In this document: positions 594 through 40,340 of the stretch, piece by piece | How positions within the stretch are numbered: the stretch's first letter is position 1 | How the letters are laid out: each line of letters opens with the position of its first letter | Origin: Corticibacter populi | Lineage (GTDB): Bacteria; Pseudomonadota; Gammaproteobacteria; Burkholderiales; Burkholderiaceae_C | NCBI RefSeq assembly: GCF_004217315.1 | Contig: NZ_SGWR01000005.1 | Coordinates: 186,001-250,000 of the forward strand | Reading direction: 5' to 3' | Length of the DNA stretch: 64,000 nt | Notes under the pieces: model-generated | What the model was told of the DNA's origin: nothing | Seen by the model: only the letters and a program-made list of their open reading frames with translations | Database searches by the model: none | Program-made: the position numbers and the translations under genes

Positions 594-1247
594 ATGTCAT
601 CGATCCCACCTTCATCGTCACGAGCCCGGCCGTCGAACGGCCTGTTCGACAGCTGGCTGACCCTCACGCCCCAAGGTGTCCTGCAGGCCTTCGGCTCGGC
701 CGAGCCAAATGAGCTGCAGCTGGCCCTGCAATCGCTGTTGCGCAAGGAACTGGCCGTGAGCAAGAGCGAGTGGAGCATTTCGACGCGCCACAATGCCTAC
801 CTCGAACAGGCGCGCGATCAGCAATGGGTGCAGGTGCTGTCGGCGCCGGTCAACGGCCCGGATACGCGCCTGTCGGACTTCATCCGCCACGTCATCGCGC
901 CGCTCTCGGGCGAGCGCCGCGCGGTGCTCGCTTCCGAGAGCGGTTTCTGCCTTGATCGCGTGGGCGTTGAGCAGGACGAGGCCGAGGCGCTCAGTGCCGC
1001 CGCTGCCGACTTCTCCGAATATGCGCGGCGTCAGGCGCGTCGTGGCTGGCAGGGCGCGAGCCGCTATGTGTCCTTCTTCGACGATCCGCAGCTGCTGCTG
1101 CCGAGCTGGTCGTTCGTGCCGATCTGGGTCGATGGCGCCGGCTACTGGATCATCATCGGTGACGAGCCCCTGCTCAACAACCTGGCACTGGTCGAGTTGG
1201 TCTGGGGCATCTGCCTGGCCGGCAAGCGCTTCCTGCCGGATTTCTGA
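594..1247 (+). CDS. Uncharacterised protein, possibly roadblock/LC7-like
   Basis: 217 residues with no signal peptide. The ATG at 594 is the first start after the upstream gene. The central part (about residues 95-190) alternates hydrophobic strands and a helix: a VLASESGFCLD strand, then a helix rich in Ala beginning EAEALSAAAADF, then strands ending in GYWIIIGDEP. That pattern is reminiscent of roadblock/LC7 domains, which act as GTPase-associated or dynein-associated scaffolds, but the resemblance is by eye only. It follows the previous gene by 26 bases. Its TGA stop forms the first bases of a terminal inverted repeat of the element at 1246-1482. Function unknown. Confidence 0.6.
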   Translation: MSSIPPSSSRARPSNGLFDSWLTLTPQGVLQAFGSAEPNELQLALQSLLRKELAVSKSEWSISTRHNAYLEQARDQQWVQVLSAPVNGPDTRLSDFIRHVIAPLSGERRAVLASESGFCLDRVGVEQDEAEALSAAAADFSEYARRQARRGWQGASRYVSFFDDPQLLLPSWSFVPIWVDGAGYWIIIGDEPLLNNLALVELVWGICLAGKRFLPDF

Positions 1248-1482
1248 GAACCTGTTTACGATCTTTTCATGGGTCACGTTGTCCCGACAGGCGATGCGAT
1301 GCAAGGCGCAAACCGCAGTCGGGCCGGTGGCCCGGCGAGGATTTGTCACGTCGCAGCGCGCGCCTGCCGGGACAACCCGAAGGGCGGGAGGTCAAAAACG
1401 CACCGAGCGGCGTTGCCCGCCTTGCCCACTGCATTTTTGACCTTCCGCGTGACCCATGAAAAGATCGCAAACAGGTTCTGAG
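1246..1482. repeat. Terminal-inverted-repeat element, copy A
   Basis: The left end (GAGAACCTGTTTACGATC, then CTTTTCATGGGTCACG) is matched in inverse at 1450-1482 over about 32 bases with two mismatches. The interior contains a GC-rich segment (1298-1362) that is closely similar to the interior of copy D at 29370-29440, including GTGGCCCGGCGAGG. The element begins inside the TGA stop of the upstream gene. No coding frame of its own is convincing, so it looks like a non-autonomous miniature element (MITE-like). Confidence 0.75.
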
Positions 1483-1499
1483 CACATCGATGCGCATGG

Positions 1500-1528
1500 A
1501 AAAGGCCGCTTTCCAGCGGCCTTTTCTT
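1500..1528. terminator. Bidirectional Rho-independent terminator
   Basis: An 11-bp stem AAAAGGCCGCT / AGCGGCCTTTT with the loop TTCC, flanked by A and T runs on the two sides. It lies between convergent genes, the uncharacterised gene ending at 1247 and the nitroreductase ending at 1572, and can serve both. Confidence 0.8.
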
Positions 1529-1571
1529 CGGAGATCGGCGTGAACAGGTCCTGAGGGACTGGGTGTCCGGC

Positions 1572-2174
1572 TCAATCGCGGAAGGTGCGGAAGCGGATCG
1601 CGTCGTCGATGTAGGTCTTCTCGCCAAACGGCTTCTCGTTCGAGCCGAACGGCATCTGCGCACGCAGCTTCCAGGCTGGCGGAAGATTCCAGGTGCGCGT
1701 GACTTCGGCGTCGATCAGCGGGTTGTAATGCTGCAGGCTGGCACCGATGCCGGCCTCGGCCAGCGCCGTCCACACCGCCAGTTGGGCCATGCCGGCCGAA
1801 TGCTCGGAGAACACCGGAAAGTGCTCTGCGTAGAGCGCATATTTTTCCTGCAGGTCACGGATGGTCTCGCCATCCTCGAAGAACAGCACGGTGCCGGCTC
1901 CGGCGGCAAAGCCGTCGAGCTTCTTGTCGGTCGAGCCGAACTGGTCGGCCGGCACCAGCGGGCGCAGCGTCTCGCGCACGATGTTCCACAGCTTCACGCT
2001 GGCCGCACCGAACAGGATCACGGCGCGCGAGCTCTGCGAATTGAACGAGGAGGGCGCCAGGCGCACGGCCTCGTGGATCAGGGCTTCGGCCTCGGTCTCG
2101 GCGATGGGCAGGTTCTTGCCGAGTGCGTACTGGGTGCGGCGCTTGCGCAGCGCGTCGATGGCGGGATTGCTCAT
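1572..2174 (-). CDS. Nitroreductase family protein
   Basis: A 200-residue FMN-dependent nitroreductase-fold protein, the usual length for the small single-domain group. It begins MSNPAIDALRKRRTQYALG, the N-terminal helix and Arg-rich phosphate-binding segment that contacts FMN in this family. APSSFNSQSSR (about residues 37-47) is the conserved substrate/flavin loop, and GIGASLQHYNP near residue 145 is the glycine-rich loop. Family members reduce nitroaromatics or quinones with NAD(P)H in the cytoplasm; the real substrate is unknown. A longer upstream in-frame extension has poor coding character, so the ATG at 2174 was chosen despite a weak ribosome site. Short copies of the GAACCTGTTC-type repeat end lie just outside both ends of the gene (1535-1556 and 2197-2213). 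Confidence 0.85.
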   Translation of the reverse strand: MSNPAIDALRKRRTQYALGKNLPIAETEAEALIHEAVRLAPSSFNSQSSRAVILFGAASVKLWNIVRETLRPLVPADQFGSTDKKLDGFAAGAGTVLFFEDGETIRDLQEKYALYAEHFPVFSEHSAGMAQLAVWTALAEAGIGASLQHYNPLIDAEVTRTWNLPPAWKLRAQMPFGSNEKPFGEKTYIDDAIRFRTFRD

Positions 2175-2364
2175 GGTTGCAGAAGGCTTTCGTTGTGGAA
2201 GATCGTCAACAGGCTCCAGGCATCGGCCGACATGGGGATGAGGCCAGCGGTAGCGGCGGCGTGGCCGTTTGCCGTGCTGCACACCCCTTCGGCCCAGCCT
2301 GGTTTTGCAGCGCACAAGATAGCCGAAATCGCAATTCCCTGCAGACGCGGCTGCGATGCATGAT

Positions 2365-2396
<32 letters not shown>

Positions 2397-2485
2397 CGTG
2401 CTGCTTGCATAATGTTTGCGTTTGCCTATCCACCCCCATCGATCCGGCATGGGCGCGCGCGGCGTGATGCGCGAACCCTTGCCCC

Positions 2486-5305: not shown

Positions 5306-5371
5306 GCCGGGCAGGCGTCCGGCCGGTCCTGCTCTTCAGCGTGGCTGTGACCCAGATGCGGTGAGGGCGTT

Positions 5372-5522
5372 CAGGGCGTGTTCATGGTCTCGCCGCGCAG
5401 CCGCATGGCTGTGCCATGCCGTTCGGGCTGCACCTGGAAAACCGCGGCTGCGGCCTGAGCCTTGCCATCCATCACGATCTTTCAGGCGCAACGGCAAGCC
5501 CGCCGGGACTTTGAACAGGTTC

Positions 5523-5525
<3 letters not shown>
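5372..5525. repeat. Terminal-inverted-repeat element, copy B
   Basis: The left end GGGCGTGTTCATGGTCTCG (from about 5374) is the imperfect inverse of the right end GGGACTTTGAACAGGTTCTCA (5505-5525). On the minus strand the right end reads TGAGAACCTGTTCAAAG, where TGA is the stop codon of dctD. This is the same arrangement as copies A and D. The interior has no coding frame. It fills most of the space between ppc and dctD. Confidence 0.7.
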
Positions 5526-6920
<1,395 letters not shown>

Positions 6921-6936
6921 GGTGTGCGGCAGGTGT

Positions 6937-8799: not shown

Positions 8800-8825
8800 C
8801 GCCCTGCCACGCGGCAGGCTGCGGC

Positions 8826-12648: not shown

Positions 12649-12700
12649 TTCAATGGATTTCCATACAGACATCTGTTTGTCTGTATGGAAATCCATTGAA
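12649..12700. promoter_or_regulatory. Perfect 23-bp inverted repeat, candidate DctD enhancer
   Basis: Arms 12649-12671 and 12678-12700 are exact reverse complements around a six-base loop. It lies about 85-140 bases upstream of the predicted dctA start point, the usual place for a sigma-54 activator site. It also lies 25 bases after the stop of the upstream gene, but neither strand has a T run after the stem, so a terminator is less likely. Confidence 0.55.
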
Positions 12701-20576: not shown

Positions 20577-20661
20577 GAGAGCGTGTTCATAGTCTCGCCA
20601 GGTGGACGCCACGATTTTTCTGGCATGTCGGCAAGCGTGTCGAGACTTTGACCACGTGCTT
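20577..20661. repeat. Terminal-inverted-repeat element, copy C (short)
   Basis: The ends are GAGCGTGTTCATAGTCTCG (from 20579) and, in inverse, CGAGACTTTGACCACGTGCTT (20641-20661), an imperfect match over about 20 bases. The element is only about 85 bases, lies upstream of the yihY-like gene and does not touch a stop codon, unlike the other copies. Confidence 0.6.
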
Positions 20662-20968
20662 ACGGGCATGTCGAATGGAGCCGCCAAAGCAGGCGAAGAA
20701 GGGGTCATGCGGCTTAGCTGGGGAAAGCATGGGAACGTTCACTGCCAAGCTTTTCCGAGGCCGGACAGGTGTGTGGAAAGCCTGATGGGGTCAATAGGCC
20801 GGTGTGGTGTCTCGCACGTAACTCGCATGGAAAAGGGCGTCTTCATCGCATGGCGGCATTGCAAATGATGGAGCAGCGGCTAGGGGCAGCAGATCGTCGC
20901 CACGGTGCGCCGCAGCGGCGTGTCCTGGATGGCTGGACGGCAATGCGGCCCTTCGGGTGGATGATTCG
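20662..20968. other. Intergenic region, no gene seen
   Basis: About 300 bases between repeat copy C and the MarR gene. Short frames exist on both strands but none has recognisable motifs or a good ribosome site. This may be the left border of the accessory region. Confidence 0.4.
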
Positions 20969-21508
20969 CTACCTGTTCCCAGAAGCGGCGCGGTTCGCAG
21001 GCGCATCCAGACTCCGCAGCAACTCGGATAGGCGCATGTCCAACTCTTCCAGCGCCGCCGCTGGCAGAGCGGACAAAATCCGGCGCTCGTTGTCGAGGTG
21101 CGCCTCCACGGCACGGTCGATCAGTGTGCGGCCTTTGCGCGTCAGCTGCACAAGCATGCTGCGCGCATCCTGCGCGTTGGGCACGCGCTCGATCCAGCCC
21201 TTGGCCTCCAGGCCCTTGAGCCGATGGGTCATCGTGCCGGAGGTCACCATCAAGGTGGAGAACAACTCGGTCGGACTCAGGCGGTACGGGGCGCCAGCGC
21301 GCCGCAGCGCGGCCAGCATGTCGAACTCCCAGAGGCTCAAGTCAAATTCGGCGAAGCGGGATTCCAGGCGCTGTTCCAACAACGCAGCGCAGCGCTTGAT
21401 GCGCCCGATCGGCCCCATCGGGCTGGCATCGAGATCGGGCCGCGCTTGCGCCCACTGGTCGAGGATGGCGTCCACCGCATCGGGTGGGCGTTGACTGGCT
21501 TTCTTCAT
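20969..21508 (-). CDS. MarR family transcriptional regulator
   Basis: 179 residues from the ATG at 21508. The winged helix-turn-helix spans about residues 55-130, with LSLWEFDMLAALRRAG, the recognition region LSPTELFSTLMVTSGTMTHRLKGLEAKGWIER and the wing NAQDARSMLVQLTRKGR, where DxRs is the family signature. It is a dimeric repressor or activator that usually responds to small aromatic ligands. It is divergent from an EamA-type exporter, and the 69 bases between them carry two palindromes. It probably represses itself and the exporter; the ligand is unknown. Confidence 0.9.
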   Translation of the reverse strand: MKKASQRPPDAVDAILDQWAQARPDLDASPMGPIGRIKRCAALLEQRLESRFAEFDLSLWEFDMLAALRRAGAPYRLSPTELFSTLMVTSGTMTHRLKGLEAKGWIERVPNAQDARSMLVQLTRKGRTLIDRAVEAHLDNERRILSALPAAALEELDMRLSELLRSLDAPANRAASGNR

Positions 21509-21511
21509 ATG

Positions 21512-21566
21512 TCTTGACTTCAAGATAATTGATCGACACAATCCTATTGTCTTGAATTAAAGACAA
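21512..21566. promoter_or_regulatory. Twin palindromes, candidate MarR operators
   Basis: TCTTGACTTCAAGA (21512-21525) and TTGTCTT-N6-AAGACAA (21547-21566) lie between the divergent MarR and EamA genes. Both contain a CTTGA half-site. Location and symmetry fit operators of the adjacent MarR protein. Confidence 0.6.
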
Positions 21567-21577
21567 GTGGCAAGATC

Positions 21578-22450
21578 ATGTCGACTGCAAGCGCATTGCC
21601 CTACTGGCGCGATGTCATCCTCACCGCGGTGGCCCCGGCGATCTGGGGCTCCACCTACATCGTGGCGTCGGAACTGCTGCCTCCCGATCGGCCTTTCACG
21701 GCTGCGCTCATCCGGACCTTGCCCGCGGGTCTGCTGCTGCTTCTGTTCACGCGCCAGATGCCTGCCCGGCGGGACTGGTGGCGTTTGCTGGTGCTTGGCG
21801 CGTTGAACATTGGCATCTTCCAGGCGCTGTTGTTCGTGGCGGCCTATCGCCTGCCTGGCGGATTGGCGGCCGTGCTCAGCGCGATCCAGCCGTTGCTGGT
21901 CATGGTGCTGGCCTGGGCTGTGGATGGCCGATCGCCAGCGCAAACCACGCTGTGGGCGGCGCTAGCGGGCGTTCTGGGAATGGCGATTCTGCTGCTGTCG
22001 CCGCAGACGGTGTTCGATCCTGTAGGGGTAGCCGCAGCATTGTTGGGTGCGGCGTGCATGGCCAGCGGCGTGTGGCTGACACGTCGCTGGCAATTGGATC
22101 TGCCCTTGTTGCCGCTGACTGGCTGGCAATTGGTCATCGGCGGATTGATGCTCGCGCCCGTCGCGTGGCTGGCCGACGCGCCGCTGCCGCCCTTGGCGCG
22201 TTTGCAATGGGTTGCCTACGCCTACCTCAGCCTGGCCGGGGCCTTGCTTGCCTATGCGCTCTGGTTCCGTGGCGTGGCCCGCCTGCCGACCGTCGCAGTG
22301 GCATCCCTGGGATTGCTAAGTCCGCTCACCGCCGTGGTACTGGGCTGGGCGCTGCTCTCGCAGTCGATCACGGGAGGGGCACTTTTCGGACTGGCGATGG
22401 TGCTGACCAGTGTCTTCGCCGTGCAGTGGACGACGCCGCGTAGCAAGTGA
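21578..22450 (+). CDS. EamA family (DMT superfamily) transporter
   Basis: 290 residues with ten predicted membrane helices in two repeated EamA domains (about 10-135 and 150-285). It begins MSTASALPYWRDVILTAVAPAIWGSTYIV, and the WGSTYIVASELLPPDRPF segment is typical of RhaT/YedA-like members. These carriers export amino acids, metabolites or drugs; the substrate cannot be predicted. It is transcribed divergently from the MarR gene. A short gap leads to the next nitroreductase gene on the same strand. Confidence 0.88.
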   Translation: MSTASALPYWRDVILTAVAPAIWGSTYIVASELLPPDRPFTAALIRTLPAGLLLLLFTRQMPARRDWWRLLVLGALNIGIFQALLFVAAYRLPGGLAAVLSAIQPLLVMVLAWAVDGRSPAQTTLWAALAGVLGMAILLLSPQTVFDPVGVAAALLGAACMASGVWLTRRWQLDLPLLPLTGWQLVIGGLMLAPVAWLADAPLPPLARLQWVAYAYLSLAGALLAYALWFRGVARLPTVAVASLGLLSPLTAVVLGWALLSQSITGGALFGLAMVLTSVFAVQWTTPRSK

Positions 22451-22490
22451 CTGCGCCCCTTCAAACCTCTTACTTTCCATCGGTAATGGC

Positions 22491-23108
22491 ATGAATACTT
22501 CCATACGAAGCACCATCGAGACTCGAACATCGGTCAATGACTTTCAGCCCAATCTTCCGCTGGATGATGGTGCCATTGCAAAGCTGGTTGACCTGGCGAC
22601 AAGGGCTCCGTCTGCCTATAACTTGCAGAACTGGCGCTTCATCGCCGTGCGCTCGCAAGACGCCAAAGTGCGGTTGAAGGCGGCTGCCTTCGGGCAGCAG
22701 AAGGTTGTCGATGCTTCCGTGACTTTCATCATCTGCGGCACGCTGGCAGCGCATCGGCAATTGAGGGCGGCTCTGCAGCCCAGCGTAGAAGCCCACGTCA
22801 TGGCCCAGCGGGTGGTCGATGCGTGGGTCGCGCAGGCCAGCGCGTCCCATGAAAATGACGCAGTCTTGCAGCGTGACGAGGCTGTGCGCTCGGCTTCCCT
22901 GGCTGCCATGACCCTGATGCTGGCCGCGCAGGGCATGGGGCTGGGTTCATGCGCGATGGGTGGCTTTGATGCAGCACAGGTGGCTCAGGCGTTTGGGTTG
23001 GGCCCATCTGAATTGCCCGTGGTGATTGTCGCCATCGGTCATCCGGCAACCGGCAATTGGCCACAGAAACCACGCAAGCCGCTACCTGAAATTCTGGCCA
23101 TCGTTTGA
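22491..23108 (+). CDS. Nitroreductase family protein
   Basis: 205 residues from the ATG at 22491. The first helix carries RTSVNDFQPN, where the Arg contacts the FMN phosphate. RAPSAYNLQNWRFIAV (about 43-58) is the family's flavin/substrate loop, and GMGLGSCAMGGFD near residue 150 the glycine loop. It is a cytoplasmic FMN oxidoreductase of unknown substrate, only distantly similar to the nitroreductase at 1572-2174. Base composition falls slightly from here to about 24480. It lies upstream of a small monooxygenase and an ECF41 sigma factor and may belong to the same functional unit. Confidence 0.85.
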   Translation: MNTSIRSTIETRTSVNDFQPNLPLDDGAIAKLVDLATRAPSAYNLQNWRFIAVRSQDAKVRLKAAAFGQQKVVDASVTFIICGTLAAHRQLRAALQPSVEAHVMAQRVVDAWVAQASASHENDAVLQRDEAVRSASLAAMTLMLAAQGMGLGSCAMGGFDAAQVAQAFGLGPSELPVVIVAIGHPATGNWPQKPRKPLPEILAIV

Positions 23109-23172
23109 AGGGCGCCGTGATGGCGCTTCTGTGCCGGCGTTGCGTGCTCAAGCCATGCTCATTGGCCGACCA

Positions 23173-23199
23173 TGTCACGTTTTTGCGGGTTGTCTTGTC
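23173..23199 (+). promoter_or_regulatory. Candidate ECF41-type promoter
   Basis: TGTCACG (23173-23179), then 16 bases, then TGTC (23196-23199). The motif described for ECF41 sigma factors is TGTCACA at -35 and CGTC at -10, so ten of eleven informative positions would allow one mismatch each side. It lies about 60 bases before the monooxygenase gene that precedes the ECF41 gene. Confidence 0.55.
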
Positions 23200-23259
23200 A
23201 TGTCTCAGGTGGCTTCTTTCGCGGCCACCATCGTCACAACCCAACTCAGAGGAGAAACC

Positions 23260-23598
23260 ATGACTGGCAAACAGCTGGCAACGATCGACCCAACGGCGGC
23301 GTACCTGACGCTGATAAACGTCTACGAGGTAGAACCTGACCATCAGGCTGCATTGGTGAAGGCGCTTGCGGAATCGACCGAGCACACCATCCGCCACCAA
23401 CCCGGCTTCGTATCGGTCAGCATCCACAGTAGCCTTGATGGCAAGAAGGTGGTGAACTATGCCCAATGGGCATCAAAGGAGCATTTCGAAGCATTCATGG
23501 CGAAGGCGCAGACACAGGCGCAACTCAAGCAGTTTGCCGGCCTCGCGAAATCGGTCGCGCCAAGCCTCTACAAGGTCAACGCGGTGCATGCAGCGTAG
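23260..23598 (+). CDS. Antibiotic biosynthesis monooxygenase (ABM) domain protein
   Basis: 112 residues, the normal size of a single ABM ferredoxin-like domain. The ATG at 23260 follows a strong AGAGGAGAAACC site. Family features include TLINVYEVEPDHQAALVKAL, HQPGFVSVSIHSSLDGKKV and YAQWASKEHFEAF. Such small dimeric proteins oxidise quinol-like substrates without a cofactor or bind haem-like ligands; the substrate here is unknown. It ends 15 bases before the ECF41 gene and has an ECF41-like promoter upstream, so it is likely both co-transcribed with and controlled by that sigma factor. Confidence 0.85.
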   Translation: MTGKQLATIDPTAAYLTLINVYEVEPDHQAALVKALAESTEHTIRHQPGFVSVSIHSSLDGKKVVNYAQWASKEHFEAFMAKAQTQAQLKQFAGLAKSVAPSLYKVNAVHAA

Positions 23599-23613
23599 CG
23601 CACAGATGCAGCC

Positions 23614-24477
23614 ATGAGCGACATCCTTTCTGACCCGACGTTCACCGAGATCCGTCCTCGCCTTGTCCGTCTTGCGTATCGCATGCTGGGCTCGGTCGCG
23701 GATGCGGAGGATGTCGTTCAAGATGCTTATCTGCGCTGGCTGGTGACAGACCGGGATGCGGTGCGCCAGCCAGCGGCGTTGCTGCGCACCATCGTGACCA
23801 GGCTTTGCCTCAACGAGCTGAAATCCGCTCGGCGCAGGCGCGAGACCTACATCGGGCCATGGTTGCCGGAGCCCATCGTCGAAGCCGACGAGATGGAGTC
23901 AATCGACGATATGACGCTGCCACTCATGATGGTATTGGAGCGCCTCTCTCCATTGGAGCGGGCGGCGTTTCTTCTGCATGACGTATTCGGCATCGGATTC
24001 GATGACATTGCCGATGCCCTGAATCGCGACACGGCGGCATGTCGAAAGCTCGCGAGCCGTGCTCGTGACCACATCCAGTCAGCCCGTCCGCGCTTTCCCG
24101 TGACGAAGGAGCATGGCTTGGAAATCGCCGCCGCATTTTTCATGGCGTCCAGAAATGGCGACCTGGACAGCCTGCGGTCTCTTCTCAGAGCCGATGTGAT
24201 GGCTTGCACCGATGGCGGAGGCAAGGTTCCTGCCTCGCTGCATCCGTTGATCGGCATTGCACAAGTCATGGCACGGCACGCAGCGCTTGCGCGGGCGTTC
24301 ATTGAGTCGCCGTCCTCGCTGGTCCGCTATGTTGTGATTGATGGACTTCCGGGCTTTGTCAGCATCGAGGGGGGAGGAATCGTTCAGACCACCGCTTTGC
24401 AAATTGAGGAAGAAAAGATCGTTGGCATCTTCATCACCAGAAACCCGGACAAGCTGCGGCACATCGGCAGTGTTTGA
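23614..24477 (+). CDS. ECF41 group sigma factor with C-terminal SnoaL-like domain
   Basis: 287 residues. Sigma region 2 (about 8-75) contains AEDVVQDAYLRWL and region 4 (about 105-160) contains LSPLERAAFLLHDVFG. Three ECF41 hallmarks are visible: WLPEP in the linker (83-87), DGGGK (200-204) and NPDKL near the C-terminus (277-281). In this group the SnoaL-like C-terminal domain takes the place of an anti-sigma factor and tunes activity; no anti-sigma gene is seen nearby. Targets in other genomes are usually the adjacent oxidoreductase-type genes, which fits the monooxygenase and nitroreductase here. Confidence 0.93.
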   Translation: MSDILSDPTFTEIRPRLVRLAYRMLGSVADAEDVVQDAYLRWLVTDRDAVRQPAALLRTIVTRLCLNELKSARRRRETYIGPWLPEPIVEADEMESIDDMTLPLMMVLERLSPLERAAFLLHDVFGIGFDDIADALNRDTAACRKLASRARDHIQSARPRFPVTKEHGLEIAAAFFMASRNGDLDSLRSLLRADVMACTDGGGKVPASLHPLIGIAQVMARHAALARAFIESPSSLVRYVVIDGLPGFVSIEGGGIVQTTALQIEEEKIVGIFITRNPDKLRHIGSV

Positions 24478-24606
24478 AGGCGCCCATAGCGCCTGTCCAC
24501 ATCAGTTCCCATGACTCTGCCTGCCGCGCCTCTTGCCGAATGCTCGGAAACGATGGCTTGGTGCTCGGCCCGTGTGCATGCCGTCATGTCCCGCACCGGG
24601 AGAGCG

Positions 24607-25518
24607 TTAGATGGTGTCCCACGGCGCCTGCCGCCAACGCTCCACCAGGAAATCGCTGAACGCCGTCAGCCGACGCGGCACGGGTTCGCGCCGCGCCCGC
24701 AGGATGCTGATCTTCGAGGGCGTGGCCTCCCATTCCGGCAGCACGCGTACCAGCCGCCCGTCGCGCAGTTCCTCGTGGATGTCCCAGGTTTCGCGCAGCG
24801 AGATGCCCAAGCCGGCCAGGCACCACGCATGCAGCACGTCGCCGCTGTCGCTGCACAGCGTGCCGCTGACGGTGACGGGTTTTTCCCGACGCCCCTTGCG
24901 CAGCGGCCAGGTGTTTTGCAGCAAGCCGGGATAAGCGAACACCAGGCAGTTGTGCCGGGCCAGGTCTTCGGGCGTTTCGGGCCGGCCATGCGATTTCAGA
25001 TAGACGGGCGAAGCCGCCAGGACGCGCCGGTTGCCGGCTACGCGCCGCGCCACCAGCCGCGAATCGGCCAGTTCACCCATGCGGATCGCCAAGTCCAGGT
25101 CGCCGCCATACAGATCCTGCACCTGATCGGACAGGCGCAGGTCGAAACCGACCTTGGGATGCAGGCGGCAGAAGTCATGGATTGCCGGGGCGACGAACTT
25201 GCGGCCGAAAGGTGTGGGCGCGGTCAGGCGGATGACGCCGCGCAGTTCCTGGCTGCCGCTGCTCGCCAGTTCCTGCACTTCTTCCAGCACGCCCAGCGCC
25301 ACGCGCGCGCGTTCGGCGATGGCGCGGCCTTCGTCGGTGATGCGCAGGTTGCGGGTGTTGCGCTCGAACAGCGTGGTGCCCAGCGCCTGTTCCAACCGGG
25401 CGATCTGCTTGCTCACGGTCTTGGGCGCCAGGTGCAGGGCGCGCGCAGCGGCGGAGAAGCTCTCGCGCTCCACCACATGCACGAACACCGCCAGGTCATC
25501 GAGGTTGCGCAGGGCCAT
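24607..25518 (-). CDS. LysR family transcriptional regulator
   Basis: 303 residues from the ATG at 25518. The N-terminal helix-turn-helix (about 5-65) reads LAVFVHVVERESFSAAARALHLAPKTVSKQIARLEQ, followed by the standard linker and a periplasmic-binding-type effector domain from about residue 90 (LRGVIRLTAPTPFGRKFVAP). It belongs to the CrgA/DhcR-like branch, which often controls an adjacent oxidoreductase. Its promoter region (25519-25588) has a 12-bp inverted repeat and is duplicated upstream of the DJ-1 gene at 27210, so that gene or its lost neighbour may be a target. Confidence 0.9.
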   Translation of the reverse strand: MALRNLDDLAVFVHVVERESFSAAARALHLAPKTVSKQIARLEQALGTTLFERNTRNLRITDEGRAIAERARVALGVLEEVQELASSGSQELRGVIRLTAPTPFGRKFVAPAIHDFCRLHPKVGFDLRLSDQVQDLYGGDLDLAIRMGELADSRLVARRVAGNRRVLAASPVYLKSHGRPETPEDLARHNCLVFAYPGLLQNTWPLRKGRREKPVTVSGTLCSDSGDVLHAWCLAGLGISLRETWDIHEELRDGRLVRVLPEWEATPSKISILRARREPVPRRLTAFSDFLVERWRQAPWDTI

Positions 25519-25588
25519 TTGGGTCGTTTCGTAGAAAGTGTTTGTCGATTCTGGTGATTCAAAGGATAGCCCGAAATCACCAGAATGA
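25501..25588. promoter_or_regulatory. LysR promoter/5' end, copy 1 of an 88-bp duplication
   Basis: Contains the first codons of the LysR gene and its upstream region. ATTCTGGTGATT (25548-25559) and AATCACCAGAAT (25575-25586) form a 12-bp inverted repeat, a likely binding site. The stretch aligns without gaps to 27094-27181, identical at 67 of 88 positions by my count. Confidence 0.65.
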
Positions 25589-25617
25589 CGATCCAAAATC
25601 GGCAAGCCGCAGCGGGG

Positions 25618-25992
25618 TCAATCGTCCCCGGCCAGTGCCTCGCCATGCGTTCGCATCCAGTCGGCGAGCGAATCCAGCGTCGGCCGTAATGACTGGCCCA
25701 GCGCGGTGATCTGGTACTCCACGCGCGGCGGCACCTCGGCATACACCTGGCGCCGGACCAGTCCTCGCCGCTCGAACAGGCGCAGTTGTCGCGTCAACTC
25801 CTTCTGCGTGATCGGTGCGATGGCGCGTTGTAGCTCGCTGAAACGGACAGCTACGCCGATCACGATCAGGCGGTAGAGGATCGGAATGGCCCATTTGCCC
25901 GACACCAGATTGACGAAACTCACCATCGGGCACGGTTCGATCGTGCCCGATGGTGGAGAAGATGGAGGGGCTGCGGGAATGTGATGCGGCAT
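25618..25992 (-). CDS. HxlR family transcriptional regulator
   Basis: 124 residues with the HxlR winged helix over about 22-115: VSGKWAIPILYRLIVIGVAVRFSELQRAI, ITQKELTRQLRLFERRGLVRR and PPRVEYQITALGQSL. The family's usual initial Cys is at about residue 21 (EPCPMVSFVNLVSGKW), a position used for redox sensing in some members. The family often controls aldehyde or quinone detoxification genes. It is divergent from an SDR oxidoreductase with a dyad between them, so local control of the SDR gene is likely. Confidence 0.88.
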   Translation of the reverse strand: MPHHIPAAPPSSPPSGTIEPCPMVSFVNLVSGKWAIPILYRLIVIGVAVRFSELQRAIAPITQKELTRQLRLFERRGLVRRQVYAEVPPRVEYQITALGQSLRPTLDSLADWMRTHGEALAGDD

Positions 25993-26011
25993 GGCGATCC
26001 AATGACCTCCT

Positions 26012-26048
26012 TGGTATCCAATAGGTGCCTACTATGCAAAGGATACCA
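26012..26048. promoter_or_regulatory. Dyad between HxlR and SDR genes, candidate operator
   Basis: TGGTATCC (26012-26019) and GGATACCA (26041-26048) are perfect inverse repeats 21 bases apart in the divergent intergenic region. This fits an HxlR dimer site controlling both directions. Confidence 0.5.
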
Positions 26049-26092
26049 TTGAGAAAACAATGCGGCTTTCCAATCGAATCACGGGAGCACGC

Positions 26093-26842
26093 ATGAAACG
26101 ACTGCAAGACAAATTCGCCCTGGTCACGGGCGGCACCAGCGGCATCGGCCTGGAGACGGCGCGGCAATTCCTGGCCGAGGGCGCGACGGTCGCCATCACC
26201 GGCCGCGATGAGCGCGCGCTGGAGCGCGCAAGAGTAGAGCTGGGCAGCGCCGCGCTGGCGATCCGCTGCGATGCCGGCGACATCGGCGCCCAGCACGATC
26301 TGGCGCAGGCGCTTGCACAGCAATGGCCGCGCCTCGACGTGCTGTATGCCAACGCCGGCGACGTCACCCATCGGCCGCTACAGGACTGGGACGAGACGAC
26401 GTGGGATCGGCTCATGGCGATCAACCTCAAGGGGCCGTTCTTCCTGATCCAGTCCCTGTTGCCGCTGCTGGCCGATCCGGCGTCGGTGATCCTGTGCGGA
26501 TCGAGCAGTGCCCATATCGGGCTGCCGCAGAGCAGCGCCTATGCCGCCAGCAAGGCTGGCCTGCTGTCGCTGGCGCGCACGCTTTCGGCGGAGCTGGCGG
26601 ATCGCGGCGTGCGGGTCAACGGCTTGAGCCCAGGCCCGACCGAAACCCCGGCCCTCGGCAAGCTGGGGCTGTCCCCGGAACAGCAACGCGCCATGCAGGA
26701 TGACATCCGCAAGCTGGTACCCATCGGCCGCATGGGCACGCCGTGGGAACTGGCGAAGGCGGCCGTTTTCCTGGCCTCCGACGAATCGCGCTTCGTCGTC
26801 GGCACGGAACTGCTGGTCGATGGCGGCGTGGCCAGCCTGTAG
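26093..26842 (+). CDS. Short-chain dehydrogenase/reductase
   Basis: 249 residues, classical SDR. The NAD(P)-binding motif is TGGTSGIG (12-19), followed by NAG in YANAGDV, and the catalytic YxxxK is Y150-K154 with a serine about 13 residues earlier in LCGSSSAH. The acidic or basic residue after strand 2 reads GRDERAL, which suggests NADP preference. The ATG at 26093 has a GGGAG site; an earlier in-frame ATG at 26060 would add 11 residues not typical of the family. The physiological substrate is unknown. Probable target of the divergent HxlR regulator. Confidence 0.9.
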   Translation: MKRLQDKFALVTGGTSGIGLETARQFLAEGATVAITGRDERALERARVELGSAALAIRCDAGDIGAQHDLAQALAQQWPRLDVLYANAGDVTHRPLQDWDETTWDRLMAINLKGPFFLIQSLLPLLADPASVILCGSSSAHIGLPQSSAYAASKAGLLSLARTLSAELADRGVRVNGLSPGPTETPALGKLGLSPEQQRAMQDDIRKLVPIGRMGTPWELAKAAVFLASDESRFVVGTELLVDGGVASL

Positions 26843-27209
26843 CACGACCGCGTATGCGGCGTGCGCTTTCAGCATCGTTTCAAGCACTACCCGTGCTTCG
26901 GCAAACCCGCAATCAGCTTTGCACGATCGAGTGGGCACGGAGGACATCGCGCCGACCATCAATGTGTTGGCGGCGAACATCGGCATTGTGTTCGTCAACT
27001 GGATTGGCGAACCGCTAACGGATTCGCGGCCGGGTGGGTGCAGGTCAAGGGTGCGATATCGCGAGTCAGCGCCATCACGACGGTCAAGTAATCGCAGTTA
27101 CGCAGGGAAATTTGGTTTATTTCGTAGAAAGTGTTTGTCTATTTGGGTCATTTAAAGAATATACCAAGCCCGCCAGAATGAAACGCTCCATTTCCATCAG
27201 GAGCTTCCG
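26843..27209. other. Non-coding stretch with LysR 5'-end relic
   Basis: No intact gene. One short plus-strand frame around 26930-27010 (GTEDIAPTINVLAANIG and following) looks protein-like but I cannot place it. The right part is the degenerate copy of the LysR 5' end and promoter described separately. Confidence 0.45.
27094..27181. promoter_or_regulatory. Copy 2 of the LysR promoter region, upstream of DJ-1 gene
   Basis: Aligns gap-free with 25501-25588 (67 of 88 identical). The segment equivalent to the LysR start codon has mutated (CAT to AAT on this strand), so only the promoter and first codons of a second LysR gene remain. The segment TTTCGTAGAAAGTGTTTGTC is unchanged between the two copies. 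It ends 29 bases before the DJ-1 gene. Confidence 0.65.
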
Positions 27210-27914
27210 ATGACCCAGCGCATTCTTTTCGTCCTCACCAGCCACGACCGCAAGGGGCCGGCCGACGCCGCCGATGCAGCGCCCAGCGGCTTCTATCTCT
27301 CCGAGGTCACGCATCCGCACCGGGTGCTGGCCGATGCCGGCTATGCCGTCGATTTCGTCAGCCCCAAAGGAGGAAAAACACACGTCGATGGCCTTGATCT
27401 GGACGATCCGGTCAATGCCGCGTTCTGGAACGATGCAACCCTGCGCGGCGCCACCGAAACCACGCTGGCACCGTCCCAGGTCGATGCCGACGCCTATGCC
27501 GCGATCTTCTATGCCGGGGGCCACGCGACCATGTGGGACTTCCCCGATAGCGCCGAGCTGGCCGCGATTGCCGCGCGCATCTACGAGCGCGGCGGCGTGG
27601 TCGCGGCAGTCTGCCATGGCCCGGCCGGGCTGGTGAACCTCAAGATGTCGGATGGCCGCTATCTGGTCGATGGGAAGAACGTGTCGGCCTTCACCAACGA
27701 TGAAGAACGCACGGTCGGCCTGTACGACACCGTGCCGCTTCTGCTGGCCGATGCCTTGCAGGAACGCGGTGCCCGCCACCTTCCCGCGCCGAACTTCCAG
27801 GCGCAGGTGGTGACGAGCGAGCGGCTGGTGACGGGCCAGAACCCGGCGTCGGCCAAGGGCGTGGCCGAAGCGATGCTGCCGCTGCTCGTGCTCGCTACCG
27901 CAGCGCAGGATTGA
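27210..27914 (+). CDS. DJ-1/PfpI family protein, Hsp31/glyoxalase III-like
   Basis: 234 residues. The nucleophile elbow is AAVCHGPAG with Cys135 and His136, and an acidic residue E32 in YLSEVTHPH completes a Cys-His-Glu arrangement seen in the Hsp31 branch. AIFYAGGHATMWDFPD (about 98-113) is the conserved oxyanion region. Members act as glutathione-independent glyoxalases, holding chaperones or deglycases, relieving methylglyoxal-type carbonyl stress in the cytoplasm. A GGAGC site precedes the ATG. A duplicated LysR promoter element sits directly upstream, and a relaxase relic directly downstream. Confidence 0.88.
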   Translation: MTQRILFVLTSHDRKGPADAADAAPSGFYLSEVTHPHRVLADAGYAVDFVSPKGGKTHVDGLDLDDPVNAAFWNDATLRGATETTLAPSQVDADAYAAIFYAGGHATMWDFPDSAELAAIAARIYERGGVVAAVCHGPAGLVNLKMSDGRYLVDGKNVSAFTNDEERTVGLYDTVPLLLADALQERGARHLPAPNFQAQVVTSERLVTGQNPASAKGVAEAMLPLLVLATAAQD

Positions 27915-27955
27915 TCCATGATCGAGCGAACAGGGCCCGGTCGAGTAAGTGCGGC

Positions 27956-28093
27956 CAGCGAGTCATCCTGGCTCGCAACCTGCTAGGCATGCTGCGCAAC
28001 CGGGAACTGGCGCAGGCCGCCAAGGACATTGCGGCGGAAATCGGCCTGGAATCTCGCCCGGTGGCCAACGGTCAGCGAGTGGTCGGTATCGCC
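27956..28093 (+). pseudogene. Relic of a conjugative relaxase (DUF3363 region)
   Basis: The translated fragment runs RVILARNLLGMLRNRELAQ, then AAKDIAAEIGLESRPVANGQ and RVVGIA. This closely resembles the C-terminal DUF3363 region of relaxases carried by Tn4371/RP4-type integrative elements of Burkholderiales, judged from memory of the family. Nothing of the relaxase before or after it remains, and its end runs into the 3' end of the TetR gene on the other strand. It marks past insertion and decay of a conjugative element. Confidence 0.65.
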
Positions 28094-28728
28094 AGAAGCG
28101 CGATGAAAAAATCGAGAGTATCTGTCATTGTCTGTTCCGTCGCGCGCTGCGGCTCGCCCCATTCAGGGAAGTGACCGTCTACGGACATGCGCGCCAGCCC
28201 ATAGACCAAAGCACGCGCCGCGATTTTCGCTAGTCCTTGGCTCCGTAAGTCCATGTGGTCCTTGAAGGCTTCAGCTAGCAGCTGCTCCATCACTTCGCGG
28301 ATCGCAGCATTGCTGCGTGTCAACGTTTCGGAACTTTCATAGTCGATCAACGGGCGCTCGCTGACAACGCGAAAGTGTGTCGGGTGCGCACTTGCCCAGC
28401 CCAGGTAAGCATGTCCAATGGCTGCGAGACGTACCAGTGGCGGCTGCTTTTCGACAGTTCGCAAGGCGCCTTGCACCTGCGTACGCAGATGCTCAGCCGC
28501 CTGCTCGGCGACTGCGGTGAGCAGCGCTGTGCGCGTAGCGAAATGACGGAAAGGCGCCCCTGGCGACACGCCTGCACGCTTGGCGGCTTCGCGCACGCTG
28601 AGCTTATCCACTCCCTGCTCCTCGATCAGCTGTACGGCAGCCTCAATCAAAGCTTCGCGTAAATGCCCATGGTGGTAGTTCTTGCGCGTGGACTGAGCGC
28701 GTGGTTTGAGTGGAGGAGAGTGGGGCAT
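28072..28728 (-). CDS. TetR family transcriptional regulator
   Basis: 218 residues from the ATG at 28728; an upstream ATG at 28767 is possible but would place an operator half-site inside the gene. The N-terminal helix-turn-helix (about 20-65) includes YHHGHLREALIEAAVQLIEEQG and LSVREAAKRAGVSPGAPFRHF, a branch with a TetR_C_33-like ligand domain after residue 80. It is divergent from a small secreted-protein gene with a near-perfect palindrome between them. Lower GC than the surrounding genes. Its 3' end overlaps the relaxase relic. Confidence 0.88.
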   Translation of the reverse strand: MPHSPPLKPRAQSTRKNYHHGHLREALIEAAVQLIEEQGVDKLSVREAAKRAGVSPGAPFRHFATRTALLTAVAEQAAEHLRTQVQGALRTVEKQPPLVRLAAIGHAYLGWASAHPTHFRVVSERPLIDYESSETLTRSNAAIREVMEQLLAEAFKDHMDLRSQGLAKIAARALVYGLARMSVDGHFPEWGEPQRATEQTMTDTLDFFIALLAIPTTR

Positions 28729-28789
28729 GCCTGGAGAGGGCTCATGGGAAATGTAATCACCGATCATTTCAGTGTAAGCTGCCCATGCG

Positions 28790-28808
28790 ATGTATTCATT
28801 GATTACAT
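28790..28808. promoter_or_regulatory. Palindrome, candidate TetR operator
   Basis: ATGTATTCATTGATTACAT is a 19-base palindrome with one mismatched pair. A further ATGTAATCA half-site lies at 28751-28759, closer to the TetR start. It sits between the divergent TetR and secreted-protein genes, 36 bases before the latter. Confidence 0.6.
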
Positions 28809-28844
28809 TGCATGGGTCATCAACAAATTTTTCTGGAGTTCGTC

Positions 28845-29321
28845 ATGCGTTTCAGCTCTTCTTTCCTAAAAGCGGCGTTTCGGGCCAGCGTGGCCTCGCT
28901 TTGTGTCAACCTTGCCGGACCTGTTACGGCGCAGACTGAGCCGGCTACGCTGAAGATTGTTTGGCCGCCCTCGGGCGCCACCGTACCCCTGAACGCGGAT
29001 GGAGAGCGTGCCATCGGCGTGCTGGTGGAAAGCAATTTCAAGCTGCTGGCTGCTGGCCAGTGTGGCAGCGACAAGCGTTGCGGGCACGTCCATATGAAAA
29101 TCGACCCACAAGGGGACAGTTGCAATCTACCGGGCCGCCCCTACAACAGCATGAATAGCGACTTCGGCGGACCGCTAATCAAGGCCAACTTTGGCGCTTG
29201 CGCCGTGCCAACAGGCGAGCATGTGATCGGCGTGCTATTGGCCGACGACCACCACCAGCCCGTGCTGATCGATGGCAAACCCGTGACAGCTCTCGTGCAA
29301 GTTCGAACCACTATGCCTTGA
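28845..29321 (+). CDS. Small secreted protein of unknown function
   Basis: 158 residues from the ATG at 28845, which follows a GGAG site. An N-terminal signal peptide (SSFLKAAFRASVASLCVNLAG, cleavage near VTA/QTE) predicts export. The mature part is beta-rich, with four Cys at positions suited to two disulfides: CGSDKRCGHVHMKID, DSCNLPG and FGACAVP. GEHVIGVLLADDHHQPV near the C-terminus resembles the extracellular beta-sandwich of DUF4399-like or superoxide dismutase-like small domains, but I do not claim a family. It is divergent from a TetR regulator. Its TGA is the first part of repeat copy D. Confidence 0.75.
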   Translation: MRFSSSFLKAAFRASVASLCVNLAGPVTAQTEPATLKIVWPPSGATVPLNADGERAIGVLVESNFKLLAAGQCGSDKRCGHVHMKIDPQGDSCNLPGRPYNSMNSDFGGPLIKANFGACAVPTGEHVIGVLLADDHHQPVLIDGKPVTALVQVRTTMP

Positions 29322-29508
29322 GAATCTGTTCAAAGTCTTGGTATGAGAGCCGTTGTGGTTGAAAGGTTGTGGCTGCAAGGCGCAAAACGCAGCCGGGCTG
29401 GTGGCCCGGCGAGGCTTTGCAACGCCGCAGACGTAGCATTTCAGCCGCAACTCACAGGGCATGGCGTTGCCATGCGGATCCATGCGGAGACTTTGAACAG
29501 GTTCTGAG
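29320..29508. repeat. Terminal-inverted-repeat element, copy D
   Basis: Ends GAGAATCTGTTCAAAGTCT (from 29320) and, in inverse, GAGACTTTGAACAGGTTCTGA (29487-29507). The interior (29370-29440) shares CAAGGCGCAAAACGCAGCC and GTGGCCCGGCGAGG with copy A. The left end begins in the TGA stop of the secreted-protein gene. Confidence 0.8.
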
Positions 29509-30312: not shown

Positions 30313-30325
30313 ATTTGGGGACCTC

Positions 30326-32213: not shown

Positions 32214-32252
32214 ATGTCTGGACAACGTTGATTTGAACAAAGGAGTGTCGTC

Positions 32253-33152: not shown

Positions 33153-33183
33153 TTCCAAGGGTTATCAGAAGGAGGTACGCACC

Positions 33184-35789: not shown

Positions 35790-35814
35790 AGGGCGGGACA
35801 TCGGGAGATGTGGT

Positions 35815-36376
35815 GTGGAACGGCGTCATTTGCGCTGCTTCCTGGCCGTAGCCGAAGAACGCCACTTCGCTCGCGCCGCCGAGCGGCTGCACATCGAACA
35901 GTCGTCCTTGTCGCGCGCCATCAAGGAACTGGAAGAAGACCTGGGCATGCGGCTATTCATCTGCATCGCGCGCAGCGCCTGCCTGGCGCGCGTCGGGCAA
36001 ATGTTCCTGGGGCACGTCCTGCGCATCTTCATCACCTTGCAGCAGGCCCGCGAGAGCGTCAAAGCAGCTGCGGCCGGTCAGGGCGGCCAATCACATGTTG
36101 CCCATCTCCGATGGCCTCACACCGTCGCGCCCATGCGCTTTCCTGGTGCAGTGCCGCGAGGATGGCCCCGAGGCCGATCCACGAGGCCGATGCGATCCGC
36201 TGGTGGTGTCCGTGCCCTTGCGCCATCTTCTCCTGCTGACTCACAAGCGTGTCCCGCCGGAGGAAGTGTCGCGCTATCCGCTGGTGATGTGTGATCCGCG
36301 CATCTGCAAGGGCTACTGCTGCGAAATCGCGCGCGTACTTCGCACCGTGGATGAAATGAAAAAGGCCGCGTCGTGA
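35815..36376 (+). pseudogene. Frameshifted, 3'-truncated LysR family regulator
   Basis: A GTG at 35815 with a GGGAGA site opens a normal LysR N-terminus (ERRHLRCFLAVAEERHFARA and LSRAIKELEEDLGMRLF). Around 36085-36098 the frame shifts by one base; the sequence continues as ISDGLTPSRPCAFLVQCRED in the new frame, lacks roughly 30 residues of the effector domain compared with related proteins, then resumes at CDPLVVSVPLRHLLLLTHKR and RYPLVMCDPRICKGY. It stops at 36376 within the adk terminator, so about a third of the effector domain is missing. It marks the right end of the accessory region. Confidence 0.8.
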
Positions 36377-36383
36377 CGCGGCC
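36355..36383 (-). terminator. Rho-independent terminator of adk
   Basis: A 9-bp GC-rich stem GGCCGCGTC / GACGCGGCC (36364-36383), followed on the minus strand by TTTTTC. It lies 25 bases after the adk stop. Confidence 0.85.
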
Positions 36384-36408
36384 ATGGAGACGTGGCGATG
36401 CCAGTGGC

Positions 36409-38067
<1,659 letters not shown>

Positions 38068-38071
<4 letters not shown>

Positions 38072-38250
38072 TGGGCGAGTTCTTCGTCGGTCAGGGGACG
38101 GGCCTCGTTCTCGAGCAGGACGGGAATGCCGTCGCGCACCGGATAGGCCAGGCGCGCGCTGCGCGAGACCAGCTCCTGGCGCTTGCGGTCCAGGCTGAGC
38201 GGGCCCTTGGTGACCGGGCAAACCAGCAGTTCCAGCAGCTTGCTGTCCAT
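38068..38250 (-). CDS. Trm112/YcaR family protein
   Basis: 60 residues, the standard size. It starts [18 protein letters not shown] and ends with [20 protein letters not shown], the classic YcaR/Trm112 pattern. Only one Cys of the usual zinc-binding set is present (CPVTKG), as in many proteobacterial members. The function in bacteria is unclear, and it is almost always upstream of kdsB, as here, with a four-base overlap. Confidence 0.92.
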
Positions 38251-38403
38251 GGCGGTGATCCTTATGCTTGTGGGGTTCGAATGGAAAACGCAATGATACG
38301 GGATGGGCACGGCCCTGCCGGCATGCGCCGCCCCGATCGTTCCGGTCGCATTCGCTCCACCGGACTCTTCCTCCGCCTGACCCTGCATCAAGGAGTACGC
38401 CCC

Positions 38404-40275
38404 ATGCATCACCCCATCCCTTCATGGCGCGCCCAGGGCGCCGCCTGCGCCATCTGGCTGCTGGCCGCCACATTGGCTGGCTGCGCGTCCTGGTTGCCGG
38501 ACGGAGCCTCCCAGGGCAGGGCGACGAATTTCCAGTACCAGATACCCACGCAGCCCGAGGTGGCTACCGGGCGCAGCGAGAAACCCGGCTGGGTGACCCA
38601 ATCCTTTGCGGTGGCTGCGGCCAACCCGCTGGCCACCGATGCCGGCTATCAGGTGCTCAAGGCAGGCGGCAGCGCGGTGGATGCGGCCATTGCCGTGCAA
38701 ATGGTGTTGACGCTGGTGGAGCCCCAATCGAGCGGTATTGGTGGCGGGGCCTTTCTGCTGTTTGGCAATGACGCCGTGGTGCAGGCCTACGACGGGCGCG
38801 AGACGGCACCCGTTGCAGTTGGCGAGGACTTGTTCCTGCAGCCTGATGGTGGGCCCATGTCTTTCGAGCAAGCCGTGGTTGGCGGCCGTTCGGTCGGCAC
38901 GCCGGGCGTGGTGCGCATGCTGGAGCTGGCGCACCGCGAGCATGGCCAGCTACCCTGGGCGCAACTGATCGAACCGGCCATCGCGTTGGCCGAGCAGGGC
39001 TTCGCCGTCAGCCCGCGTTTGCACCAGATGCTGGCGGGGGAGACGGCGCTGCGGCAGGACCCGGAGGCACGCCGGTATTTCTACGACGCCAAAGGCCAAC
39101 CATGGCCGGTCGGGCATGTGCTGAAGAATCCCGCGCTGGCGGAGGTGTTGCGCCGCATCGCCCGTGAGGGCGCACAGGTCATGCATGAAGGGGAGCTTGC
39201 CGAGGCCATGGTGCAGAAGGTGCGTTCCCATCCCGCCAATCCGGGGCTACTCAGCCTGGCCGATCTGGCCGGCTATCAGCCTCAAAAGCGTGAGCCGCTG
39301 TGTCACGACCATGTGACGGCCCAGCAGATCGCCTATGTCATCTGCGGCTTTCCGCCGCCAAGCTCCGGTGCGCTGGCGATCGGGCAGATCCTTGGCATTC
39401 TGCAGCACACACCGGCGGCCGGGCTGCCGCTGGTCGATGGCCTGCCCTCCGCCGACTGGCTGTATGCCTACGGCGAGGCGGCGCGCCTGGCCTTTGCCGA
39501 CCGTGCCCAGTATGTGGCCGACCCTGACTTCGTGGTGCCACCGGGGGGCAGCTGGCACAGCCTGCTCGATGGTGCTTACCTGCGCCAGCGGGCCGGCCTT
39601 GTTGGCACCACCAGCATGGGGAGCGCGCTGCCCGGTGTGCCGCCGGGGCCGGCTGCACCGCAGGCCTTCGCGCCCATGGCGGAGCAACCCGAATATGGCA
39701 CCAGCCACATCAGCGTCGTTGATGGCCAGGGCAATGCCGTGGCGATGACTACCACCATCGAAGCACAGTTCGGCGCACGTCAGATGGTGCACGGTTTTCT
39801 GCTCAACAACGAACTGACGGACTTCAGCTTTGCGCCACGCGACGCCGAAGGCCGGCCGGTGGCCAACCGCGTGGAACCGGGCAAGCGCCCGCGCTCTTCA
39901 ATGGCGCCGACGCTGGTGTATGCCCGCAATTCCGATGGCAGCCGTGGTGCGTTGCTGGCCAGCCTGGGTAGCCCTGGCGGGGCGTTGATCATCCACTACA
40001 CCGCCAAGACCTTGTATGGCGTGCTCGATTGGGGCCTGACACCCCAGCAGGCCATTGACCTGCCCAATTTCGGTTCGCTCAATGGACCCACCTTGCTTGA
40101 GGCTGGAATGTTCCCGGCTCCTCTGGTCGAGCAGCTCAAGACCCGAGGCTCCGAGGTGCGGGAAGTGGACATGACCAGCGGTCTGCAGGCCATCACGCAG
40201 GGCGTGGCCCATGGCCGCAAGCTGTGGTTTGGTGGAGCCGACCCCCGGCGGGAAGGAATTGTGATGGGGGATTGA
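38404..40275 (+). CDS. ggt: Gamma-glutamyltransferase, predicted lipoprotein
   Basis: 623 residues. It cleaves gamma-glutamyl bonds, mainly of glutathione, and transfers the glutamyl group to water or amino acids. The catalytic Thr433 begins the small subunit ([10 protein letters not shown]), released by self-cleavage. [33 protein letters not shown] and the C-terminal [17 protein letters not shown] are the family signatures. The N-terminus is a lipoprotein signal ([10 protein letters not shown]), so the enzyme should be anchored in the envelope, unlike the soluble E. coli enzyme. Divergent from trm112. Confidence 0.92.
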
Positions 40276-40307
40276 GGCTGGTGCGCTCCCGCTTGGTGTG
40301 GCGCTTA

Positions 40308-40340
40308 GAGCCTGTTCATGAGGCGATCGTGGGCAGGTTC
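40308..40340. repeat. Terminal-inverted-repeat element, copy E (minimal)
   Basis: Ends GAGCCTGTTCATG and, in inverse, GTGGGCAGGTTC, only 33 bases in total. On the minus strand the right end reads TAGGAACCTGCCC, with TAG the stop of the small secreted-protein gene, the same placement as copies A, B and D. A core hairpin with nearly no interior. Confidence 0.55.

Follow-up and report, generated by a model that had tools for sequence, protein, structure and literature searches.

The dispersed inverted repeats in a 64,000-nucleotide stretch of the Corticibacter populi genome (here called the window; bases 186001-250000 of contig NZ_SGWR01000005.1, in a genome of 4.2 Mb and nine contigs) are miniature inverted-repeat transposable elements (MITEs), nonautonomous elements with inverted-repeat ends. 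Their target is a TNA triplet inside a palindrome close to GNTC-TNA-GANC, insertion duplicates the TNA, and the frequent coincidence of the elements with stop codons comes mainly from this choice of target, with target and gap accounting for most of the enrichment. Their interior is a covarying hairpin of about 57 nt in which pairing is kept while the helix sequences change. A first-pass annotation of the same DNA had listed five elements, four of them with an end merging with a stop codon, and had suggested either a target-site preference for gene ends or a role in the formation of transcript 3' ends.

Alignment of both ends of all pairs places the start of the inverted repeat (terminal sequence GAACCTGTTCA...) at GAACC, with a TNA triplet bounding each side. 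The shared inverted repeat that had been reported is present, but the TGA or other TNA preceding GAACC is duplicated target and not part of the element. The features in the window are as follows, with element coordinates given without the flanking triplets.

1248-1478, plus strand: MITE copy A, 231 bp in length, with terminal repeats of about 31 bp whose arms are 94% complementary
1245-1247, plus strand: left target duplication of copy A, TGA, which is the stop codon of the gene at 594-1247
1479-1481, plus strand: right target duplication of copy A, TGA
1297-1356, plus strand: core hairpin of copy A
1535-1551, plus strand: solitary right end belonging to another copy, with TGA after it
2201-2216, plus strand: solitary degenerate right end, GATCGTCAACAGGCTC
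5374-5522, strand not assigned: MITE copy B, with TCA on both sides (5371-5373 and 5523-5525)
20579-20659: MITE copy C, degenerate, with TGA on the left and TTA on the right
29322-29504, plus strand: MITE copy D, 183 bp, with TGA on both sides (29319-29321 and 29505-29507)
29373-29430, plus strand: core hairpin of copy D
40308-40340: element E, 33 bp, two ends with almost nothing between them, TTA on the left and CTA on the right

The flanking triplets match in copies A, B, and D and do not match in C and E. Four of the five elements had been described as merging with a neighbor's stop codon, and this description largely holds: besides copy A, the right TCA of copy B is the stop codon of the minus-strand gene at 5523-6920, the left TGA of copy D ends an open reading frame (ORF) at 28812-29321 that our codon-usage gene caller missed (its stretch 28845-29321 is without a Pfam match), and the CTA adjoining element E is the TAG stop of the minus-strand gene at 40341-40742. 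The flank of copy C coincides with no stop of any called gene. Element E is probably a degenerate copy or a deletion derivative. Among the solitary ends proposed earlier, those at 1535-1551 and 2201-2216 look genuine; the pair at 51407-51473 was rejected as an element, having only weak arms and no TNA duplication, and pairs resembling terminal inverted repeats inside called genes were dropped as parts.

The repeats are abundant, and they meet no counterpart in controls. The end GAGAACCTGTTCAAAGTCTC, with up to 3 mismatches allowed, has 4 matches in the window versus 0 in 100 shuffles and 35 genome-wide versus 0 for a reversed control. At least 40 places in the genome match copy A (84 rows merged by hand; the best 40 of 160 candidates were scored), and copy D, scored on the same terms, has at least 8 further copies that align over most of it with 87 to 97% identity, besides partial matches. 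Copy A DNA matched 22 of 60 genomes searched, that of C. populi included, and a blastn search of copy D against plasmids gave no match. The elements are short and multicopy, carry terminal inverted repeats, and contain no transposase gene. Loose end pairing did yield false pairs inside genes, as would be expected if chance GC-rich similarity lay behind the repeats, but the zero matches in the shuffled and reversed controls rule out random similarity, and with near-identical copies across the genome this explanation retains essentially no probability.

In the C. populi genome (G000), pairing of ends gave 70 loose pairs, 28 of them at a stop, which a stricter end pattern reduced to 45 and then to 44 paired copies; copy B, which falls below the pairing filter, and copy C are left out of this count. 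Identical TNA triplets lie on both sides of 27 of the 44 (TCA in 9, TAA in 8, TGA in 7, and TTA in 3). By chance, two positions picked 200 bp apart in other loci satisfy this at a rate of 0.00015. The same identity is seen in 31 of 41 rows from two further species (G007 and G006). Of 130 noncoding flanks pooled from the three genomes, 88 have G beside the TNA, 54 have A in second place, and 65 have C in fourth place. Coding-side flanks follow the same trend (G in 29, A in 18, and C in 24 of 40), and this recurrence of the same bases on coding and noncoding sides indicates a palindromic target. Because the element ends themselves supply G and C, every junction recreates the target, which fits the abutting copies seen in loci L020, L048, and L107. 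Head-to-tail arrays of core-bearing elements with a period of about 162 to 180 bp were also observed in G007 and G005 (L066:950-1600, L067:940-1790, and L068:940-1460), as if successive insertions had used the target recreated at each end. Across the stretches examined there are 8,038 TNA sites, of which 6,202 overlap called genes and 1,836 are nondisruptive. With insertion sites excluded, stops make up 31 of 109 nondisruptive sites with both preferred neighbors, 97 of 539 with one, and 61 of 1,025 with none; this rising share means that the target sequence is itself concentrated at stops.

Since every TNA reads as a stop triplet on one of the two strands, coincidence with stop codons was judged in frame. 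Genes were called by a home-made codon-usage caller trained on the window, each empty site was rebuilt, and a copy was scored if its duplicated triplet was the stop of a called gene; the caller's failure to find the ORF ended by copy D shows that stops can be undercounted. A first test, in which all nondisruptive TNA sites of a gap were equally likely, placed 24 of 39 copies at stops versus 13.1 (standard deviation [SD], 2.4) expected. For the copies with identical TNA, 3 of 27 lie inside a called gene and were set aside, and 18 of the remaining 24 are at stops. Flank weighting predicts 7.0 (SD, 2.1) when sites are taken from the whole locus and 11.8 (SD, 1.8) when they are taken from the same gap. 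A five-base flank matrix, built from 48 flanks and computed for G000 and G007, gives 6.8 for the whole locus and 13.7 (SD, 1.2) for the same gap. Two further identical-TNA copies of G000 coincide with TAG stops that are rebuilt partly by the element's own base, and 12 of the 27 copies lie between convergent genes. In G007, 12 of 22 copies are at stops versus 7.0 by flank weighting, and 11 of 21 versus 6.9 to 7.8 by the matrix (7.8, with an SD of 1.2, in the same gap). In G006 there is no excess, with 1 of 9 at stops versus 0.9 to 1.3 expected.

Most of the enrichment can be attributed to the target sequence together with short intergenic gaps and the lack of gene-breaking insertions among surviving copies, and what remains is a modest residual excess at stops in two species that is absent in the third. 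This residue could reflect choice or selection, which are inseparable in these data. A transposase that actively prefers gene ends, whether by reading a longer target feature at stop codons or by responding to the state of the DNA where transcription or translation ends, would account for the same-gap excesses in G000 and G007 and for those within 40 bp of a stop, where 18 of 19 copies versus 14.4 (SD, 1.1) and, in G007, 11 of 15 versus 7.5 (SD, 1.2) are at the stop itself. G006, with its single copy at a stop, argues against such a preference, as do a matrix drawn from 48 flanks, a home-made gene caller, and the mingling of selection with choice, and we regard it as unlikely. The target-site preference proposed in the first-pass annotation survives as a preference for a palindromic TNA that includes stop triplets, and a preference for gene ends as such finds weak support.

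A candidate for the enzyme that moves these elements is present in congeners. Of 12 genomes, 9 contain matches to the end pattern, among them 8 of the 9 congeners, and in G007 one pair of ends 848 bp apart encloses two frames, the first matching DUF4096 (PF13340) and the second DDE_Tnp_1 (PF01609) and DDE_Tnp_1_2 (PF13586) in Pfam, so that the partner insertion sequence (IS) encodes a DDE transposase of the IS4/IS5 type. The second frame matched 13 of 60 genomes, C. populi included, and ends paired 844 to 850 bp apart in 10 of the 30 loci returned for it (in G001, G004, G007, and G009). In G001 the IS terminates in GAACCTGTTCAAAGTCTT at one end and in GAACCTGTTCAAAGTCTC at the opposite one; the former is the exact left end (18 nt) in 5 of 9 D copies, with copy D of the window one base off, and the latter is the exact right end (18 nt) in 8 of 9. 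Identical TNA flanks 4 of the 6 IS copies for which both flanks were in hand. Judging from these shared termini, the 844- to 850-bp IS5-family element of congeners is the probable source of the MITEs. The size and two-frame layout of this IS resemble those of the IS427 group as classed in ISfinder. An IS relic at L088:1489-1760 of the C. populi genome apparently carries a large internal deletion and is possibly a step from an IS to a small element.

The GC-rich interior that copies A and D had been said to share is a common stretch of 57 nt with 88% identity. A DNA search for this core gave matches in 43 of the order's 399 genomes, with two candidates scored in each, and in many of the loci read from that search it sits inside inverted repeats with other ends. 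We aligned 33 cores, chosen for motif likeness and diversity from 135 distinct loose pattern hits of which some were spurious. In this set 83.5% of cells pair, and 86 cells are changed on both sides, versus 24.7 in shuffled alignments and at most 35 when the alignment was slid. A larger set of 68 cores gives 292 versus 93.6, a figure that leans towards the model to which these cores were aligned. The foot of the hairpin, GCAAGGCGC with GCAACGC, is nearly fixed, and the helices vary. One position is C-A or A-C on the plus strand in 22 of 33 cores, which corresponds to G-U on the minus strand; the remaining positions taken together show no such strand bias. Core hairpins also fold better than their shuffles (z scores of -1.9 to -2.9).

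With a covariance model of the core, matches were found in 99 of the 369 genomes searched in the class, spread over 76 of 272 genera, and in 63 of the 398 searched in the phylum, 34 of which lie outside the class; C. populi is included in each count. E values are rough and the genome counts provisional, and the copy counts are lower bounds because scoring covered the top 14 to 15 candidates in each genome. Rfam offered no family for the core, as the window at gathering scores yielded 3 tRNAs only, and 10 core loci searched up to an E value of 5 yielded four weak microRNA matches, none on the core. The core pattern was seen on at least 118 stretches; most of the 80 listed bear names placed in Burkholderiales, and a contig of a Desulfovibrionaceae metagenome-assembled genome (L218) also carries it, perhaps through contamination or transfer.

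Each element holds one or two of the hairpins, and where there are two, the core centers lie 103 to 108 nt apart in 15 of 17 listed loci and the hits are in opposite orientations in 16 of 17. Lengths of 258 to 277 bp were found in 20 of the 21 elements chosen for alignment, and shorter one-core forms of about 160 to 220 bp also occur. Among 19 of these elements the ends are on average 0.43 identical, versus 0.38 for shuffled ends, and the nine-base foot is 0.81 identical, a value that leans high because the foot was located by best match. Over the variable helices of 18 two-core loci, 361 of 423 positions pair within a core versus 251 of 416 across cores, counts that rest on an alignment fitted to the model, and this difference suggests that each hairpin keeps its own pairing. 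Template switching that repairs imperfect palindromes could also give paired changes, but the fixed bulges and internal loop speak against it and make it unlikely as the sole cause. A search of G643 and G743 for an autonomous partner of another end family (AGTACTCTTTCAAGG) took in 62 ends, 19 stretches, and five proteins and turned up no transposase. A Castellaniella element of about 160 bp (L210:5250-5450) carries a single core, placed at the tip of a nested hairpin, and is flanked on either side by CTAG; here the one-core form goes with a duplication of four bases.

The ends, the duplications, the copy number, the target palindrome, the matching IS of congeners, and the C. populi relic are all read directly from the genomes, and with them in view we consider it very probable that these MITEs are moved in trans by an IS5-family transposase which targets TNA, and that insertions on stop codons survive because they are harmless. 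An IS5-family transposase would have moved the present copies, with most TNA sites lying within genes that an insertion would break. Among the harmless sites, those with the preferred flanks are often stop codons; as TGA and TAA, or TCA and TTA on the opposite strand, are themselves TNA triplets, the duplication rebuilds the stop, and surviving copies would come to gather at stops and between convergent genes. Purifying selection may have produced most of the residual stop excess. The hairpins, for their part, might aid the spread of the elements as folded DNA or RNA bound by some factor.

Several observations weigh against this account. In C. populi, 17 of the 44 paired copies lack identical TNA on their two flanks, and in other genera, where a looser end pattern was applied to 108 of the at least 118 core loci, identical TNA was found in only 4 of 43 pairs; the 1 pair at a stop, where 1.0 was expected, speaks neither for nor against. 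In the C. populi genome no intact matching transposase was found (a PF01609 search matched 0 of 1 genomes), and what it does hold is a relic of 46 residues with 72% identity beside a recognizable end. The interior core was not seen in the congener IS that was read, which means that the MITE did not arise from that IS by internal deletion alone. Target and gap, as noted, do not fully account for the stop excess. Target duplication is supported by the 27 identical flanks, but the comparison of orthologous loci that had been called for gave no cleanly alignable empty site for the gene before copy A. In G002 its orthologue, with 77.8% identity across residues 15-217, stops at TAA, and nothing element-like lies in the stretch behind; at the same stop, G001 has TGA-GAACCCATTTGCGC and G006 has end-like pieces around TAA, both of which look like remnants of an element at that position. 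Five other loci, 46 to 58% identical, are too diverged to judge.

Under the suggested role in 3'-end formation, the elements would persist at gene ends for the use of their hairpins in terminating or processing transcripts. The folding of the cores beyond that of shuffles and the convergent placement of 12 of 27 G000 copies are in line with it, and an intrinsic-terminator scan of positions 1000-2400 returned 4 sites versus 1.2 in shuffles, one of them within copy A on the minus strand (1419-1404). Neither core in the window is directly followed by a T-run, however, and placement tracks the target triplet; a study of Pseudomonas, in the part available to us, attributes convergent placement to least harm (PMC2718517). 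These sequence data lend the role no support, and we think it quite improbable. Still less credible is a REP/REPIN-like nature of the cores, in which a tyrosine transposase would move the hairpins and the IS5-type ends would be incidental. The two hairpins at near-constant spacing and in opposite orientation do resemble such dimers, but the long terminal repeats with TNA or CTAG duplications, the IS5-family element with the same ends in congeners, and a core consensus without a GTAG tag all point away from it.

Beyond movement by an IS5-family transposase, we advance a tentative proposal to which we give somewhat less than even weight: the 57-nt hairpin may be a portable functional module common to Pseudomonadota MITE lineages that have acquired many different IS5-type ends. 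In this view some widely conserved factor, of the host or of transposition, would recognize it in folded form, as RNA or as single-stranded DNA, and the hairpin would be the reason why these parasites succeed with one transposase after another.

Two features of the window stand apart from the elements. A perfect 23-bp inverted repeat with a 6-bp loop at 12649-12700 is unlike the element ends, and the coding signal is weaker in parts of 20800-29300, perhaps an island, which has copies C and D at its two sides. Its genes include those for a sigma factor and an EamA transporter, and a MarR regulator is encoded just outside it.

These findings lead to a testable rule, namely, that if the target which a transposon duplicates is itself a stop triplet, the transposon can insert at the last codon of a gene free of cost. 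They also expose a conserved, covarying hairpin within MITEs of unrelated ends across a large part of a phylum; an interior held in common between elements whose ends have been exchanged suggests a long-lived parasite that exploits many transposases. In open papers we found no account of a covarying core, of different MITE ends around such a core, or of TNA-duplicating MITEs on stop codons, and among the matches listed for core sequence strings all look unrelated.

The elements resemble IS5-family MITEs of the IS427 and IS1031 groups in their size, terminal repeats, short TNA duplication, and the presence of an IS with the same ends in relatives; they differ in an interior that was not seen in the IS found and that holds a conserved hairpin common to MITEs of other ends. 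The R0 and R2 repeats of Pseudomonas fluorescens (89 and 110 bp) likewise have ends identical to those of the genome's own IS, have been proposed to be MITEs, and show a tail-to-tail bias, but the parts of their description consulted include no conserved core hairpin (PMC2718517). The CIR elements of Caulobacter share the plan of two inverted-repeat arms and a linker and are conserved between species; as far as the portion of their description compared here goes, they differ in being about 110 bp long, in their GANTC motifs, and in being only partly MITE-like (PMC2229807). REP and REPIN sequences are also multicopy hairpin repeats, often dimers, but in the sections consulted they are 20 to 40 bp long, bear a GTAG or CGTC tag, and are associated, for the GTAG kind, with RAYT transposases (PMC3733652). 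The Beta-proteobacterial repeat element (BRE) is a GC-rich repeat of about 90 bp, sometimes in tandem, in Bordetella and in Comamonadaceae, with Polaromonas, Acidovorax, and Verminephrobacter among its hosts, and one copy is transcribed as a small RNA (PMC3110155). It is like our elements in being a GC-rich repeat and unlike them in its length and in a description that, in the part seen, gives neither terminal repeats nor target duplication (PMC3110155). Compared by description, BRE is the nearest prior report, and it may overlap the core.

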